From NCBI GenBank assembly GCA_009780675.1, contig WQZP01000017.1, positions 1 through 52,951 on the forward strand: a stretch of 52,951 nucleotides of DNA. Direction: 5' to 3'. Positions 3,811-52,951 of this stretch are shown here, in pieces. The translations under genes and the position numbers were made by a program. Position 1 is the first letter of the stretch. Each line of letters starts with the position of its first letter. A model generated the notes under the pieces. The model was not told the origin of the DNA, did not search any database, and saw only the letters and a program-made list of their open reading frames with translations. Source of the stretch: Spirochaetaceae bacterium. GTDB taxonomy: Bacteria; Spirochaetota; Spirochaetia; CADAEX01.

Positions 3811-4950
3811 TTAGAATTTATAGCCAGCATTGGAAGCTTTGACTATTTTAGACTTTAACAGATTATTTTCTTTTTTTAATTCATTTATTTCCATCTGCTG
3901 GGTTTTTACAATATCGATTATATCTGAAGATGATAAAGTCCCACTGTGGAGAAGCTCTTCCATTGATTGAATTTTTGATGAAAAATCTGATTGCGCTTCG
4001 AGTTCCGCATTTGCATAGGACTCATCGAAATAATCTTCATCCGGTGTTGTATCGTGCCTGTACTCTGCCTGGAGCTTGTCCACAATTCTATAAACAGCTT
4101 GCGAAAGAACAGACTGAGGTTTATACACTATTATAGGCAAGCGGGAATTAAGCGCAATTGACTGGAGCTCGTCGCGGTAAATAACGCCTAAATGTTCGAG
4201 GTCAAAGCCAAGATACTCTCTGCACGATTTTCTAAGCTTTCCTGCAAGCGCTGCCTGTCTTGGGTCTTCCACCATATTCATTATAAGCAGCGGTGAAAAA
4301 TTTTTTACTTTTTCCATAAAGATAGAGTAACTTTCGGGGTCTGCAATTCTTATTACTTCAAGAAATTTGGGAATATACATTTTTTGCACTGCGGCGCTGT
4401 CTTCCCGCAATTTATCAATATGAGTTCTGGCAATGGTTTTTCTGCGAAAAGAGGAATCCATTATTCTAAAAATTGCCTGCTTGATAAAAATATAGGCATT
4501 AAGGGTCGCAGTTAAAGCAGGTGTTGTTACAATTATTCCCTGCCCAGAGGCAAGAAAAAAATCAATAGTATTATAATTTGTCCCAGCTCCCAAATCCATT
4601 ATAAGATAATCGTAATTAAGGGAAAAAAGATTTTTTAAGAGTTTTCTTTTCTGAGCAGTTTTTAGATTTGCCATTCCTGGCATATCAGAATCTCCGGGTA
4701 TAAAATGAACATTCTTGTAACCAGTATCATAAATAATTGAATTAAAAGAAGTTCCAGGGGTGTTTAGGAAACTGCCGATTCCGCCCCGGACCCCTGTCAT
4801 TCCCAGAACAACATGAAGATTTGAACCCCCAAGATCCATATCAACAATAGCAACTTTTTTGTCTGCCTGGCCAAGAGCAATGGCCAGATTTGCTGAAACC
4901 AAAGTTTTTCCCACGCCACCTTTGCCGCTGGCTATTGGTATTACCTGCAT
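3811..4950 (-). CDS. MinD/ParA-type P-loop ATPase
   Basis: Deviant Walker A ATPase of the MinD/ParA/Mrp superfamily. SGKGGVGKT (residues 8-16) carries the signature lysine, and a conserved IVDMDLGGSN segment follows at about 34-43. The N-terminal 270 residues are the ATPase domain. An acidic linker and a C-terminal heptad-like stretch (about 335-372) that could form a coiled coil are additions to the basic fold. FlhG/FleN-type ATPases look similar, but no flagellar gene is adjacent, so the exact subfamily is open. The start codon abuts the stop codon of the upstream membrane-protein gene (TAA at 4953-4951, ATG at 4950), which implies translational coupling. Confidence 0.8.
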   Translation of the reverse strand: MQVIPIASGKGGVGKTLVSANLAIALGQADKKVAIVDMDLGGSNLHVVLGMTGVRGGIGSFLNTPGTSFNSIIYDTGYKNVHFIPGDSDMPGMANLKTAQKRKLLKNLFSLNYDYLIMDLGAGTNYNTIDFFLASGQGIIVTTPALTATLNAYIFIKQAIFRIMDSSFRRKTIARTHIDKLREDSAAVQKMYIPKFLEVIRIADPESYSIFMEKVKNFSPLLIMNMVEDPRQAALAGKLRKSCREYLGFDLEHLGVIYRDELQSIALNSRLPIIVYKPQSVLSQAVYRIVDKLQAEYRHDTTPDEDYFDESYANAELEAQSDFSSKIQSMEELLHSGTLSSSDIIDIVKTQQMEINELKKENNLLKSKIVKASNAGYKF

Positions 4951-44721: not shown

Positions 44722-47091
44722 ATGTTGAGAAATAATTTTCGCTATATCTGCTATGTTATGGCAGGTATAGTTATATTGTTATTTTCTTTTTCTCTTTCAA
44801 CCCCGCTTTTTAAAGTGCCGTACTCTCATGTTATATATGCCCGCAATGGGGAGCTTCTTGGCGCATTGGTTGCAACAGATGGGCAATGGCGGTTTCCGCC
44901 GCAGCCTGTTAAAGATTCAAGATTTGCGATTGCCATAATAGAATATGAAGACCGCAGATTCCGTTATCACCCTGGGGTTGACCCAATTGCAATTGCAAGA
45001 GCAGCAGTTCAAAACATCAGGGAAGGCCGGATTGTTTCCGGCGGTTCTACGATTACAATGCAGACAATAAGGCTTGCGAGAGGGAATCGCAACCGCACTT
45101 TTTATGAAAAAATTATTGAAGTGATACTTGCGTTGCGGCTTGAACTTACGCACTCAAAAGATGATATTCTCGCGCTTTATGTTTCAAATGCCCCTTTTGG
45201 CGGGAATGTTGTGGGGCTTGAGGCAGCGGCGTGGCGGTGGTTCGGCCGCTCTACAGAAGAGCTGTCATGGGCAGAGGCAGCGACTCTTGCTGTTCTTCCA
45301 AACAGCCCGGGACTTGTTCACCCAGGAAGAAACAGAGATACTTTAAAACAAAAAAGAGATTCGCTGCTCGACCGTCTTGCAAAGCGCGGATTTATTACAG
45401 AAGAGACGCGCCTTCTTGCAAAGATAGAACCGCTTCCGCAGGAACCAAGGCCGCTCCCAAGACAAGCGCCCCATCTTTTGGCCAGGACTTTTATGGAGCA
45501 GCAAAGTCAAAACAGGCAAAGAAGTTTTTTTCATAAAAGAAATGACCATGCGCGCATTACTACAACGATTGATTACAGGATTCAGGAAAGAGCTAGTGTT
45601 ATTTTGAATCGGTGGTCAAGCCGCTTTCAGGGTAATGGGGTTATGAATGCTGCTGCAATTATTCTGGATACCCAGACAGGGGAAGTGCTTGCGTATGTTG
45701 GTAACGTTCACAGCAGGATTGCGGGCGATGTTGATATTATACCTGCTCCGCGAAGCTCCGGAAGTTTATTAAAGCCTTTTTTATATGCTGCAATGCTTGA
45801 TTCTGGAGAACTTATGCCAGCAGGGCTTGTAAGCGATATCCCTACAAGGATTGGGAGTTACAGTCCGGAAAATAATACCAGAACTTTTGTTGGGATGATC
45901 CCTGCAGATCAAGCTCTTGCGCGGTCAGTGAATATTCCGGCTGTCAGGAAATTGCGCTCTTTTGGCGTTGACCGCTTTGCAAGATTGCTGCGCTCTCTTG
46001 GCGTGTCTACCTTATTCAGGCATGGAGATGATTACGGCCTTCCCCTTATCCTTGGCGGAGCAGAAGTTACATTGTGGGATATGGCTGGATTATATGCCGG
46101 GCTTGCGCGAACAGCAACAGCTGAGATTGAAAGTAGAGATTCAAAATTTTTCTCTCCTACATACTATCCGCGTGTCGTGAAAACAGAGGGGCGGCAAAAT
46201 TTAACAAGAGTAAGCCCTATTTCTCCTGGCGCAGCATACCTTACTCTGGATGCGCTCACTTATGTTGTGCGCCCAGGCGAGGAGGCTGCATGGCAAAACT
46301 TTGCAAGCGCAAGGCGTATTGCGTGGAAAACAGGGACAAGTTTTGGTTTTAGGGATGCATGGGCAATAGGCACAACATCACGGTGGACTGTCGCAGTTTG
46401 GGTTGGGAATGCAACAGGAGAAGGGAGAGCAGAGCTTCGCAGTACAACAACAGCCGCGCCTGTTCTTTTTGAGATATTTTCTTTTTTAGGTTCTTCTGAA
46501 TGGTTTGAAAAACCTTTTTACGATCTAAAAGTTGCGGAAGTATGTTTTTTGTCCGGGTTCCCGGCAGGGGGGAACTGTGAAGCAATCAGAATTACAAGTT
46601 TGCCGCGAAACGCGCCATTCCATAACCCATGCCCATTTTGCAGAACAGTAACGTTAAATGAGGCGCAGGACAGACAGGTAGTGTTAACAGCAAATACTAT
46701 AGAAAGAACAATAACAAGAAGATGGTTTGTAATGCCTCCAGCAGAAGAGTGGTTTTTTACGCGCTGGAATCTTGATTATAGGGTGCTTCCCCCGTTTGAG
46801 GGTGTTTCTGCCAGGTCGACCCCTCTTGCTCTTTTTAATCCAGAGGAAAACTCTCAAATTTATGTTCCTGTGGAAATTGACGGGAGACTTGGGCAGGTAG
46901 TATTTATGGCTGCGCATAGGGATAGTAATGCAACCATCCACTGGCACCTTAATGAACAATTTCTGGGGTCAACACAAGTCTTTCACGAAATGGAAACAAG
47001 GCCAGCTACAGGCGTGCACCTGCTTTCTGTAGTAGATAACTTTGGCAACACAGTGCAGCGGCGGTTTAGGATTCTAAGCGCAGCGGATTAG
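44722..47091 (+). CDS. pbpC: Penicillin-binding protein 1C
   Basis: Class A bifunctional PBP. A single N-terminal membrane helix (about 9-28) is followed by a GT51 transglycosylase domain (EDRRFRYHPGVDPIAIARA, GGSTITMQ, EKIIEVILALRLE) and a transpeptidase domain with SLLK (Ser348), SVN, and KTGTSFGF (Lys536). The C-terminal BiPBP_C domain typical of PbpC is present, with HWHLNEQFLG near the end. It forms the known A2M-pbpC pair with the preceding gene. Confidence 0.94.
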   Translation: MLRNNFRYICYVMAGIVILLFSFSLSTPLFKVPYSHVIYARNGELLGALVATDGQWRFPPQPVKDSRFAIAIIEYEDRRFRYHPGVDPIAIARAAVQNIREGRIVSGGSTITMQTIRLARGNRNRTFYEKIIEVILALRLELTHSKDDILALYVSNAPFGGNVVGLEAAAWRWFGRSTEELSWAEAATLAVLPNSPGLVHPGRNRDTLKQKRDSLLDRLAKRGFITEETRLLAKIEPLPQEPRPLPRQAPHLLARTFMEQQSQNRQRSFFHKRNDHARITTTIDYRIQERASVILNRWSSRFQGNGVMNAAAIILDTQTGEVLAYVGNVHSRIAGDVDIIPAPRSSGSLLKPFLYAAMLDSGELMPAGLVSDIPTRIGSYSPENNTRTFVGMIPADQALARSVNIPAVRKLRSFGVDRFARLLRSLGVSTLFRHGDDYGLPLILGGAEVTLWDMAGLYAGLARTATAEIESRDSKFFSPTYYPRVVKTEGRQNLTRVSPISPGAAYLTLDALTYVVRPGEEAAWQNFASARRIAWKTGTSFGFRDAWAIGTTSRWTVAVWVGNATGEGRAELRSTTTAAPVLFEIFSFLGSSEWFEKPFYDLKVAEVCFLSGFPAGGNCEAIRITSLPRNAPFHNPCPFCRTVTLNEAQDRQVVLTANTIERTITRRWFVMPPAEEWFFTRWNLDYRVLPPFEGVSARSTPLALFNPEENSQIYVPVEIDGRLGQVVFMAAHRDSNATIHWHLNEQFLGSTQVFHEMETRPATGVHLLSVVDNFGNTVQRRFRILSAAD

Positions 47092-47535
47092 GGATGATTT
47101 TCTTTGCGTTATATCCTGGTGCGAAACATTTTTTATCTAAATGATGAGGCGTATGTGAAATTCGTATTATGCAGTTATGCGAAACACTCTGGTATGGCTG
47201 GGGGGGCGTGGATAGGTAGTGTATAATTTGACAAAATTTAATTAGTATTGTAATATCATTATTATGAATATCGAAATATTTAATGTTTTAGAACAGGCAT
47301 CGTGTGTAGCGAATTTGTGAAAAAATTATCTTGCGGGTAGCGGTTTTAAAATGGAAACAAGACCTGCTTCTTCAGGCATTCAAGGTAGGCAAGGCGGGAA
47401 GGGAATAAAATGGGAGTCTTGTGCAAATTTAGATAAGTAGAAATGAGAAATGTTAAACACAATTTTTTTTAATCATTCACAGTTAGATTTAAGCTCTTCT
47501 CTTTTTTCTGTTAAGAAACTCTCAAATTTCTGCAA
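47092..47535. other. Intergenic stretch before the recombinase cassette
   Basis: 444 bp with no convincing gene or RNA. It carries several short A/T runs only. It separates the core-like pbpC region from the recombinase cassette. Confidence 0.5.
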
Positions 47536-47571
47536 AGTGTGAAAGAAAAACGCTCGTTTATTTTACACACT
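47536..47571 (+). repeat. 36-bp recombination-site-like repeat, L1
   Basis: It starts AGTGTGAAA, has the core CGCTCGTTTA and ends TTTTACACACT, so its two ends are nearly inverted copies of each other (a dyad). It lies 37 bp past the recombinase stop codon. It matches R1 in 28 of 36 positions or more and L2 in the conserved ends and core. Confidence 0.75.
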
Positions 47572-47608
47572 TGCATATGCCTTAATATAACAGCCCTTAG
47601 AAATTGTT

Positions 47609-48223
47609 TCAAGGGGGTATTGGATAAGATTTTTCCAGGTTTTTTGCAAACGAAATAATGGTCTTCCGGGACACGCCGAACTTGCGGGCAATGGAGCTTT
47701 TTGAAGCCTTTCTGTCTAATAACGATTGTATTTCTGCCTCATATCCTGAAAGTTTGCGCCGGGCGGGCTTTTTTCCAGGGGGTCTGCCAAGTATAAACCC
47801 CTCTGATTTTTTACGCGCAAGCGCCTCTTTTGTTCTTTGGGAGATTAGATTACGTTCTATTTCAGCAGATAATCCGAACGCAAATGCAAGAATTTTCGAA
47901 TGTAAGTTATCTCCCAGTCGGTAATTGTCCTTAATTGTCCAAATTCTTACGCCGTTTAACATTAAATTGTTCAAAATCGACATTATCATGAACAAATTCC
48001 TGCCCAGCCTGGATAGCTCGGAGCAAATGATTAAATCATTGGGTTTGGCTGCGGCAAGCAGCGCCCCCAACATTCGCTTTTCCGGCGATTGTGATCCGCT
48101 GATGGTTTCCTCAATCCACTGGTCGATAACTATATTGTTTTTTAAGCAAAACTGTTCAATTTCAAATCGCTGATTATCAAGTGTTTGTCTGTCCGTACTG
48201 ACCCTAATATAACCGTATATCAT
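47609..48223 (-). CDS. Serine recombinase (resolvase/invertase family)
   Basis: 204-residue small serine recombinase. The catalytic serine is Ser9 in GYIRVSTDRQ. The core motifs ELSRLGRN and AEIERNLISQRTKEAL are present, followed by an arm and a C-terminal HTH (KSSIARKFGVSRKTIISFAKN) that would bind the site. GGAGGT lies 5-10 bases before the ATG. The site R1 sits 32 bp upstream and overlaps the likely promoter, so the protein may repress its own gene. A second copy's 3' end lies at 52874-52951. Confidence 0.95.
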   Translation of the reverse strand: MIYGYIRVSTDRQTLDNQRFEIEQFCLKNNIVIDQWIEETISGSQSPEKRMLGALLAAAKPNDLIICSELSRLGRNLFMIMSILNNLMLNGVRIWTIKDNYRLGDNLHSKILAFAFGLSAEIERNLISQRTKEALARKKSEGFILGRPPGKKPARRKLSGYEAEIQSLLDRKASKSSIARKFGVSRKTIISFAKNLEKSYPIPP

Positions 48224-48255
48224 AACTACCTCCGGTTATAAATTCCATTAGTTTA

Positions 48256-48291
48256 ACTGTGTAAAATAAACGAGCGTATAAAATTCCCACT
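48256..48291 (-). repeat. 36-bp recombination-site-like repeat, R1
   Basis: Inverted relative to L1. Read on the minus strand it starts AGTGGGAA, shares the identical core ACGCTCGTTTATTTTACACA (20 bp) with L1, and ends GT. It lies between the recombinase start and the lipoprotein gene at 48483. Confidence 0.75.
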
Positions 48292-48361
48292 TTTATAGGG
48301 ATAGGATAATAACAAAACAGGAGAGGGGCATGAAAAAAATATCAAGATTAGAGGTGCAAAT

Positions 48362-48399
48362 CCTCCAAAAACTACCGTCCTACCAGATTTTGTAGGTGG
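48362..48399 (+). promoter_or_regulatory. 38-nt conserved element, class B
   Basis: Begins CCTCCAAAAAC and contains CCTACCAGATTTTGTAGG, a short hairpin. It matches 8430-8467 (minus strand) at 31 of 38 positions. It lies 83 bp upstream of the lipoprotein start codon in the same direction. Confidence 0.5.
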
Positions 48400-48482
48400 T
48401 CAAATGCGTTTTCTCATAATAACTTTACTTTTTGGTATTGATTACAATGATTTTATTCTAAGAAAAATTTAGGAGGATATTT

Positions 48483-50078
48483 GTGAAAAACACACTCAAA
48501 CTAATCGGGATTATCGCTATTGTAACGGTAATCGGGTTTGGTATGGCGGCTTGTGCAAATCCTGCAGGCAGCGAGACAGACAAAACACCTTTGGCAACAC
48601 CAGCCAATTTGCATATAGAGGCTGATGCTTCTGGTTTCTTCCTTAAATGGAACACTGTAACAGGGGCAGCATCGTATTTAGTGGACATAAACGGTGAAAC
48701 GTTTTCCACATCAACAACAAGTTATTCATTGGACCATCTGGCAAACGATAACAGGGTACACAAAATCAGGGTTAAAGCAATCGCCCCAAGCAACAGTGCG
48801 GATGTAACTGATTCAGCTTTTTCAGCCCAAATAAATTGCGAGCCTGCTATTTATGTTTTTATGTTTGAAGCAAACAGCCCTCTTAGAATTACGGGGCTTA
48901 CAGGTTACGGCGGAACCATGTTAGACATTGTTATTCCAGAGCAAATCGGGAACAGTGAAGTAACAGCAATAGGACACGGAGCATTTGAAAACAACGCAAC
49001 AATGGTTTCGGTAGTTATCCCCGCAACCGTAACCGCTGTAGGCAATAACGCTTTTAGTGGCGCAACAGCTTTAACAGAAGTAACTTTTGGAAGTGCAACA
49101 CCGCCAAGTTTTGGGGCAGGTGTTTTTAACGGCGCTAATTCAATTGAAACAATTGTAGTGCCTGCGGGCAGTGAAAGCGCTTTTGAGTCATCGCTTCCTT
49201 CGCTTCCGCCTGTAACAATCGCGGTAATGTATAATGTAACATTTAACGCAAATGGTGGACAGTTTCAAAATGGCAGCGAAACACTGACATTGCAAGTTCG
49301 GGGAGGTCAAAGAGCCACACAGCCCCAGGCTCCAGCAAGGCAAGGTTTTACTTTCGTTAACTGGACTGCAACTGCTGGCGGAACATCATTCGATTTTAAT
49401 ACAATAATAACCTGGCACACAAATTTATTTGCAAGATGGAATGCCACTGGCGGCGGTACTACACCCCCGGCTGCCCATGAAGATTTTAATCTGGCAACAA
49501 TTTTGAACGCATTGAATCCTATGCCAACCCAGCTAACAGCCACTACATGGGGGCAAGCCGCGCAACAATTAGGGCATTCGAATGTACCTATACTTATAGA
49601 GGTAATTAAAAACCATTTGTTTACACAAACAGGCAGGACAGTTGTAAACATCATGCAAGTAGGCGCTGCTATGCCAATCGAAATAACCGCGCAAACACCT
49701 ATAAGCCTTGGCACTTCCGCCACACACCCGCCAACCATGATAAGGGCGTTTTTTGAAGGCAGCGGCACTACGCCCCCTCAACAGCCCGCGCATGAAGATT
49801 TTGACTTAACGCCGATTTTGCTTTCATTCGGCAACGATGTGAATTTTCCAGCAACCACATGGGGAGGATTGTTAATTCCCGGCGGCAGATTTTCTACATT
49901 GGATGGGCTCATTCACGCCATCATTGGCTATTGCACAGTAGAAGCTGGCAGACTGGTTGTTAACATCATGCAAGTAGGCGCTCTTATGCCAATCGAAATT
50001 ACAGAACAAACACCTATAAGCCTTGGTATTACTCCCACAGATCCGCCGCAAACAAGGATTCGAGCTTATTTTCAGTAA
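48483..50078 (+). CDS. Multidomain surface lipoprotein (FN3, BspA-LRR, InlB-type repeat)
   Basis: 531-residue lipoprotein. The start is a GTG with GGAGG upstream; the signal ends in AAC (Cys24). In order: an FN3-like domain (about 38-120, LHIEADASGFFLKWN), leucine-rich BspA-type repeats (about 140-225, IGHGAFENNATMVSVVIPATV), an InlB/Flg_new-type beta-repeat (about 245-320, VTFNANGGQFQNG... FVNWTA), and two C-terminal repeats of about 90 residues, each with VVNIMQVGA, MPIEIT and TPISLG. Such proteins usually bind host or microbial surfaces. Located beside R1, transcribed away from the recombinase gene. Confidence 0.87.
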   Translation: MKNTLKLIGIIAIVTVIGFGMAACANPAGSETDKTPLATPANLHIEADASGFFLKWNTVTGAASYLVDINGETFSTSTTSYSLDHLANDNRVHKIRVKAIAPSNSADVTDSAFSAQINCEPAIYVFMFEANSPLRITGLTGYGGTMLDIVIPEQIGNSEVTAIGHGAFENNATMVSVVIPATVTAVGNNAFSGATALTEVTFGSATPPSFGAGVFNGANSIETIVVPAGSESAFESSLPSLPPVTIAVMYNVTFNANGGQFQNGSETLTLQVRGGQRATQPQAPARQGFTFVNWTATAGGTSFDFNTIITWHTNLFARWNATGGGTTPPAAHEDFNLATILNALNPMPTQLTATTWGQAAQQLGHSNVPILIEVIKNHLFTQTGRTVVNIMQVGAAMPIEITAQTPISLGTSATHPPTMIRAFFEGSGTTPPQQPAHEDFDLTPILLSFGNDVNFPATTWGGLLIPGGRFSTLDGLIHAIIGYCTVEAGRLVVNIMQVGALMPIEITEQTPISLGITPTDPPQTRIRAYFQ

Positions 50079-51573: not shown

Positions 51574-52518
51574 TTATAATATACTGACCGCGGGGGTCCT
51601 TGTTGCGGTCACTTCTGGACCACTCCCAACAGCGTTTACTGCCCTGACCCAGAATGTATATGGTGTTCCGTTGGTCAGGTCTGTGAAGGTGTGGGTAGTC
51701 GCAGTAACAGGATTTGGACTTATCCAATTCACACCACTATCTCTTGACACCTCGTATCCGGTAATCGTACTGCCGCCATTATCCAACGGCGCTGCCCAGG
51801 TAAGTGGAATTCGCGTATTTCCTGTTGCAGCTGTGAAGTTTTGCGGAGCGCCGGGGACAGTGGGCGTCGTTGCTGCTGCGCTTGCGTGTAGACCATATCC
51901 AATAACGTTAACTGCCCTGACCCGGAATGTATATTGTGTTCCGTCAATCAGGTTTGTAAAGGTGTATGTATATGCAGGATAAGGAAGATCTACCCACCTC
52001 GCACCATCATCACTTGATACCTGGTATTCGGTAATTACGGCGCCGCCGTCACTTGCAGGCGTTTCCCAGCTAAGTGTAATTGATCCGATGCCTGGCACTG
52101 CTGTAACGTATAACGGAATGCCGGGAAAGGTGGCTGGTGCATCAGGCATAACAACAAAGCGCACTGGAAAAGAGACGTTGATTCCATTCCCGCCGCGAAC
52201 ACGAACCGTACTTGTGTGTACCCCTTCGGGAAGGTCAGCATTGGGTCTGACAACCAGTGTATTATTGCTTCCATCACTTGCAATTGAGTTAATAGTAGAA
52301 ACGCCAGTGGAAGCGGCAGATGAATTAAAAGGGCCGGTAATTTCAACCGTAAGAGGCCCTGTGGCGTTTCCAGCGAAATTGTAAATATATACATTCAATT
52401 CTGGTATGTTGTTTGCTGAATACCCAGGAAGGCGGGGAGAAAAATGATATACCCCAGCCGAGTCCCGGGTAAATCCTCTTAAAACAACCCCATAATCATA
52501 TATACTTATAATCGGCAT
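51574..52518 (-). pseudogene. FN3 lipoprotein, C-terminal part (frame-shifted)
   Basis: 314 residues with a beta-rich N-terminal region and two fibronectin type III domains (about 135-220 and 222-310: ITLSWETPASDGGAVITEYQVS, IPLTWAAPLDNGGSTITGYEVS). It lacks a signal peptide. The preceding frame (52496-52771) supplies a lipoprotein signal and overlaps it by 23 bp, which suggests one ancestral gene of about 400 codons broken by a small frameshift near TATATATG (about 52497-52504). A sequencing error or a slippery site is also possible. Confidence 0.6.
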
Positions 52519-52771
52519 ATCTTTGCATGTTTATTGGAACATTGTTATTTGACCCGAGTACGACGTTTGTCCCACCAGTCCCATGAGCATAATTAAAACC
52601 ATTTATAGTGGCAAATACAGTACTGCCGGCGGGTAAGCGTATGGTGGCAGTTCTGGTTCCGCTTCCCATATCCTCAAAATAGGAGTTATCCTCTGAATTA
52701 GGGATAAAGCAGGCTGAAAGCAGCATTATGCCGAGTATAAGGATAAATGAAATTATTATTTTTGTTTTCAT
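52496..52771 (-). pseudogene. FN3 lipoprotein, N-terminal part (frame-shifted)
   Basis: 91 residues: signal MKTKIIISFILILGIMLLSAC with lipobox Cys21, then a short acidic and beta-rich stretch, ending at a stop inside the start of the FN3 part. The ATG at 52771 has GGGAGG upstream. On its own it has no functional domain. It is transcribed away from the second recombinase cassette. Confidence 0.6.
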
Positions 52772-52812
52772 TTTTTCCTCCCTCTTTTTATAATTTAACG
52801 GATCTTCCAAGG

Positions 52813-52848
52813 AGTGGGTAAATCAAATGACCGTTTTTTTTACACAGT
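52813..52848 (+). repeat. 36-bp recombination-site-like repeat, L2
   Basis: Starts AGTGGGTAAA and ends TTTACACAGT (a dyad), with CCGTTTTTTTT in place of the CTCGTTTATTTT core of L1 and R1. Same length and same position relative to a recombinase 3' end as L1 (25 bp past the stop). It lies 42 bp upstream of the lipoprotein start codon at 52771. Confidence 0.7.
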
Positions 52849-52873
52849 TGCACCATTTGACTATACAATGTCT

Positions 52874-52951
52874 TCACGCAGCATTGCAAGACATGTTTTT
52901 GATAAATGTGAAAACGGTCTTACGGCACACGCCGAACCTTCGGGCAATAGA
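52874..52951 (-). CDS. Second serine recombinase, 3' end only (cut by window)
   Basis: The 25 visible codons read SIARRFGVCRKTVFTFIKN..., closely matching the HTH end of the recombinase at 47609-48223 (SIARKFGVSRKTIISFAKN). The stop is TGA (52876-52874). The rest lies beyond the window. Its divergence shows that it is a related cassette and not a copy artefact. Confidence 0.8.
   Translation of the reverse strand, partial: SIARRFGVCRKTVFTFIKNMSCNAA

Follow-up and report, generated by a model that had tools for sequence, protein, structure and literature searches.

In the Hin system of Salmonella, the invertase gene lies inside the H segment (hixL-hin-fljBA promoter-hixR), a stretch of less than 1 kb whose outward promoter drives a surface-protein gene when it is correctly oriented. 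Another well described invertase, Mpi of Bacteroides fragilis, inverts 13 regions, most of them distant (PMC4747536). The inverted repeat of its promoters is given as ARACGTTCGTN, and homologous promoters of B. intestinalis carry the inverted repeat GTTCGTTTAA (PMC8375218). The locus studied here lies in a contig of 52,951 nucleotides from a Spirochaetaceae bacterium (assembly GCA_009780675.1, contig WQZP01000017.1), and this whole stretch is called the window. Like Hin, its invertase sits inside its own segment of less than 1 kb, with one site near the start of the recombinase gene and an outward promoter-like element at the other end; unlike Hin, the enzyme is of the Mpi family, the sites carry the Mpi core and a spirochaete lipoprotein stands in place of flagellin. 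With B. fragilis Mpi it shares the enzyme family and the half-sites AAACG..CGTTT (PMC8375218), and the lipoprotein is the proposed counterpart of the surface components which Mpi controls by promoter inversion. It differs from B. fragilis Mpi in that the invertase gene is inside its own inverton, the centre of the sites is CT and no distant CT-centred site pair was found in the genome. Close Treponema homologs (L004, L018 and L024) lie beside inverted hsdS fragments, at loci that rearrange the coding sequence of the type I restriction specificity subunit, whereas no hsdS gene is found near the window cassette.

The recombinase gene (47609–48223, minus strand) encodes 204 amino acids with an N-terminal catalytic resolvase domain and a C-terminal DNA-binding region. 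In an NCBIfam profile search the protein scored 303.5 bits against the Mpi invertase model NF009949, above its curated cut-off of 272 bits, which places it in the Mpi family, and it also matched Pfam Resolvase (PF00239, 1e-31). The nearest solved structures by sequence are the DNA invertases 4m6f and 3uj3, together with gamma-delta resolvase, and alignment to the two phage invertase structures showed that the catalytic serine context YIRVST is retained.

This gene is enclosed by two inverted sites, as the sequence-only reading had claimed. The left site (47534–47572) is a dyad with a central CT at 47553–47554, and the right site (48255–48293), inverted with respect to the left one, has a central AG at 48273–48274, i.e. 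CT on the other strand. The site which had been assigned to the promoter region of the recombinase is in fact the right-hand one, 32 bp upstream of the ATG. The arms (38/39 nt) are 82% complementary with 682 nt between them, giving a segment of ~760 bp with the sites included. Each arm is itself dyad-symmetric around its CT/AG dinucleotide (15/19 paired positions on the left, 11/19 on the right), and read in a common direction the sites are AAGTGTGAAAGAAAAACG-CT-CGTTTATTTTACACACTT and AAGTGGGAATTTTATACG-CT-CGTTTATTTTACACAGTT, near-palindromes with a non-palindromic CT centre. The claimed 20-bp identical core was also borne out: the exact 20-mer ACGCTCGTTTATTTTACACA (47550–47569 in the left site) is common to both arms, and the match between the flanks exceeds all of 1,000 dinucleotide shuffles, with a best 24-mer between the two 260-bp flanks of 22/24 (shuffle maximum 21) and a best 36-mer of 30/36 (shuffle maximum 25). 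Mismatched flank pairs from related loci (600 pairings) peak at 20/24, under the 22/24 of the window. The core, AAACG-CT-CGTTTA, has the half-sites of the published Mpi core and differs in the central dinucleotide; as an inverted pair, ARACG-NN-CGT is present as AAACGCTCGTTTA on the left and ATACGCTCGTTTA on the right, with one mismatch in the right outer half.

Within the segment, a sigma70-like outward promoter element (TTGAAA-N17-TATATT, 47584–47612, minus strand, with TGn before the -10) overlaps the final codon of the recombinase and reads left through the left site. The earlier description of a ~750-bp segment therefore stands as to the recombinase and fails as to the claim that it holds just this gene, since the promoter-like element also lies between the 3′ end of the gene and the left site. 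Shuffles of the region between the gene end and the site gave P=0.004 for this element locally, while a promoter scan of the whole region returned 5 sites against 4.2 expected. Pooled over six cassettes, outward promoters reached P=0.002, with inward-strand scores being similar in several of them and L007 falling below its null mean. The counterpart in L026 is TTGCCT-N18-TAAACT, L022 carries a related sequence, and L049 has, as judged by eye, a Bacteroidota-type TTTG ... TATCTTTG. These shuffle statistics are only suggestive of an outward promoter in Mpi-type cassettes; the promoter at the 3′ end of the recombinase gene is likely the switched part of the segment.

The proposed target is a predicted surface lipoprotein gene (48483–50078, plus strand), whose product has a signal peptide with a lipobox, BspA-type LRR_5 and a Listeria-Bacteroides repeat. 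Between the right site and its start at 48483 no promoter was found at the scan threshold. In the sequenced orientation the outward promoter points left toward 47091–47536, where no gene lies on that strand; after inversion its -10 end is predicted to lie near 48243, facing the lipoprotein gene. The cassette (47534–48293) was assembled through in one orientation. The DNA on its left, at 47090–47325, is what remains of a gene pair of nucleotidyltransferase/HEPN-like kind (MntA-HepT type) whose middle has been deleted; its promoter and initial codons share 91% identity with an intact locus of the same genome (G000:C4:113828–117034, L118), and the promoter of this scar (TTGACA-N17-TAATAT, 47228–47256) still reads toward the cassette.

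We infer that the segment does invert, that its promoter is active and that this lipoprotein gene is what the switch regulates. The Mpi-type recombinase would bind the dyad sites on either side of its gene, cut at the central CT of each and re-join the DNA with the ~720-bp segment inverted. In the sequenced orientation, with the outward promoter pointing left to a strand that carries no gene, the lipoprotein would be OFF; in the inverted one the promoter would face right and, reading through the right site, drive the lipoprotein gene from ~240 nt upstream, turning it ON. The recombinase gene would travel with the segment and stay between the sites in both states, and switching would therefore stay reversible. 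A self-contained inverton switching the lipoprotein is the best-supported reading and, in our judgement, a probable one; it agrees with the sequence-only reading of a Hin-like invertase with its own sites that is able to switch the lipoprotein, and it draws on the NF009949 score, the Mpi core and the recurrence of the layout.

Further sites near recombinase genes, for which a search of the genome had been proposed, were indeed found. At the right end of the window, a second cassette has a crossover site at 52812–52849 with an AC centre at 52830–52831 and the 3′ end of a second recombinase gene (52874–52951, minus strand; last 25 codons, SIARRFGVCRKTVFTFIKNMSCNAA and stop), which is cut by the contig end. 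This fragment shows a 60-nt match to 47636–47695 and an 87% DNA match to a copy on contig C2. An outward promoter-like element (TTGCAA-N18-TATAGT, 52860–52889, minus strand) is aimed at the lipoprotein on its left, a short lipoprotein-like gene (52496–52771, minus strand, product beginning MKTKIIISFILILGIMLLSACF) without a Pfam match, which was listed from a TTG at 52810, but for which the ATG at 52771 comes after a ribosome-binding site. Its paralog on C2 of the source genome is arranged alike, beside a decayed cassette (G000:C2:81700–82047), in which the promoter TTGTAA-N18-TATAAT takes up the position of TTGCAA-N18-TATAGT in the second cassette. In both further cassettes the promoter is thus directly upstream of paralogous lipoproteins, and by this arrangement they would represent the expected ON orientation. 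Contig C4 breaks off at its right end inside a matching site, in the inner half. Since the DNA adjoining this break shows a 92% match to that lying past the decayed C2 cassette, C4 probably represents the opposite flank of the second cassette. A mixture of orientations would be expected to end a contig at just such a point, where the sequences of the two cassette ends part; this is only suggestive, because the partner contig C17, carrying the second cassette, breaks elsewhere, inside the recombinase gene, where 45 bp or more are identical to C2.

The layout recurs in relatives. Among 92 Mpi-family loci examined for an inverted site pair around the gene, 5 had a significant one, namely the window, three termite-gut Treponema MAG loci (L007, L022 and L026) and one of Dysgonamonadaceae (L049), with 24-mer scores of 21–24 for these four relatives against a null maximum of 20. 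All five follow a common site plan of an outer half roughly GTGGGAAATTAAWCG, a centre and an inner half CGTTTAATTTACACAGTT. This centre reads AC in the four relatives and CT only in the window cassette. The window, L007, L022 and L026 fall, along with L019, in a supported clade (99/91), with L049 being separate, and on nearby tree branches are enzymes encoded next to inverted hsdS fragments. Lipoprotein or other secreted-protein genes adjoin each cassette: in the three Treponema loci a divergent lipoprotein or secreted-protein gene lies beyond the 5′ site of the recombinase, and in L049 the same surface-protein N-terminus is present on both sides of the cassette.

Two further candidates were rejected. 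The repeat of L013 passes the numeric test, but ACAACTGTGAACCTTCGGTTCGAG is unrelated and lacks the core dyad. The L008–L020 group has a single upstream motif, AGACGATAAGTAAT, for which none of the nine genomes that carry it offers a convincing partner site. In five members of this related clade (L008, L010, L011, L014 and L020) a conserved motif, TGTTATG...AGACGATAAGTAATAACA, occurs once in the interval separating the recombinase from a divergent lipoprotein gene, and their contigs end inside the 5′ part of the latter; no second copy of the motif was found beside a recombinase or lipoprotein promoter in their genomes. Plasmid Mpi homologs of the isolates T. saccharophilum, P. nigrescens, A. 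anguillae and P. distasonis have no self-flanking sites. Mpi-type recombinases beside inverted hsdS fragments, as in type I restriction specificity shuffling, were observed in L004, L018, L024, L044 and L048 and span Treponema, Elusimicrobiota, Gastranaerophilales and Lachnospiraceae. In another Spirochaetaceae locus (L038), an Mpi-type recombinase lies between ~95% identical long inverted gene copies (1529–2422 and 3952–4833), possibly an outer-membrane protein pair exchanging by inversion.

Site pairs of the same type, 150–200 bp apart and without a recombinase, adjoin lipoprotein genes in the genomes of L007 and L022/L026, and in L138 and L140 a strong promoter, e.g. TTGACT-N18-TATAAT, lies within the pair. 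These site-promoter-site elements resemble non-autonomous invertons that would be flipped in trans. Contigs C18 and C25 (L125 and L130) of the L009 genome both begin with the same ~240-bp element, two AC-centred sites around promoter-like sequence, which leads into different genes. A contig end lies at most 400 bp upstream of the recombinase in 13 of the 47 tabulated loci, against 1.4 expected, and downstream in 4; both repeats (lipoprotein or hsdS paralogs) and inversion could be the cause of this excess.

Other explanations should be weighed against a self-contained lipoprotein switch. Perhaps the segment inverts without the lipoprotein being its target, the inversion altering only recombinase expression or antisense transcripts that enter the PBP1C gene at its end, while the lipoprotein promoter is constitutive. 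We hold this to be rather unlikely, even though there is, beyond the crossover point, a weak promoter-like element (TTCCCA-N15-GATAAT, 48284–48310, spacer of 15 bp) from which the lipoprotein could be expressed whichever way the segment lies. Also in its favour is the lipoprotein leader with the signal peptide (48348–48539), 88% identical to that of a lipoprotein at C4:48778–48970 (L120) which has no cassette; the remainder of the latter looks different, as in a 5′ module common to different surface proteins. It is opposed by the outward promoters directly upstream of the lipoproteins in the other two cassettes of the genome and by the promoter-only invertons upstream of lipoproteins in relatives. 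A role of the enzyme as a master invertase acting in trans on many promoters, to which its own cassette would be incidental, is the least probable of the explanations weighed here. Such behaviour is on record for the 13 regions of B. fragilis (PMC4747536), and genomes of relatives do hold recombinase-less site pairs matching the sites of their own cassettes. In the present 2.40-Mb genome, though, three motif searches (20-mer with up to 3 mismatches, 12-mer core with 1 and 15-mer half site with 2) found no other CT-centred site pair and only chance-level matches; ACGCTCGTTTATTTTACACA itself does not occur elsewhere at up to 2 mismatches, a single 3-mismatch match being at control level. Action in trans on many promoters is thus not indicated for this enzyme; it is a property of B. 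fragilis Mpi, not of every family member.

That the inverted arms are instead the ends of a small mobile unit, of serine-transposase or IS607-like type, appears decidedly improbable. Several diverged copies in one genome, short recombinase-less versions with the same ends in relatives and the absence of the cassette from the PBP1C locus of the same-genus genomes G002 and G003 would suit such an element, yet the arms, unlike plain terminal repeats, are dyad-symmetric about a conserved centre and contain the Mpi core. The IS607 transposase model NF033518 gave the recombinase 23.9 bits, far under its cut-off of 110, and no target-site duplication or clean empty site was found in the comparison with G002 and G003, where other genes follow the PBP1C orthologs. 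It is very improbable, too, that the gene is the leftover resolvase of a degraded transposon and the dyads its operator or res subsites: members of the Mpi family do adjoin Tn3-family transposases elsewhere, e.g. on the Aureispira plasmid pAUEb, but no transposase is present among the genes around the cassette, and the inverted sites flank the gene, one at each end, in contrast to res sites, which are grouped together at one side.

Returning to the preferred lipoprotein switch, the kind of system is itself known; what is new is a Hin-type anatomy built from an Mpi-type enzyme and its sites, in spirochaetes, with satellites in relatives. In the open-access literature, the only literature covered, we found no paper on a lipoprotein switch by DNA inversion in a spirochaete. 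More tentatively, and with doubt outweighing belief, these loci might form a phase-variation family common to gut spirochaetes and Bacteroidota, in which autonomous site-recombinase-promoter-site cassettes and trans-flipped site-promoter-site satellites lie before lipoprotein genes, and in which a difference in central dinucleotide (CT in the first cassette, against AC in the second one and all relatives examined) would keep co-resident cassettes from recombining with each other. If the switch operates as proposed, gut spirochaetes would possess a compact one-gene promoter switch of ~760 bp, which may explain the frequent contig ends at these loci. Moreover, a single genome would supply recombinase-site pairs that differ in their central dinucleotides, making the orthogonality of co-resident invertases directly testable.
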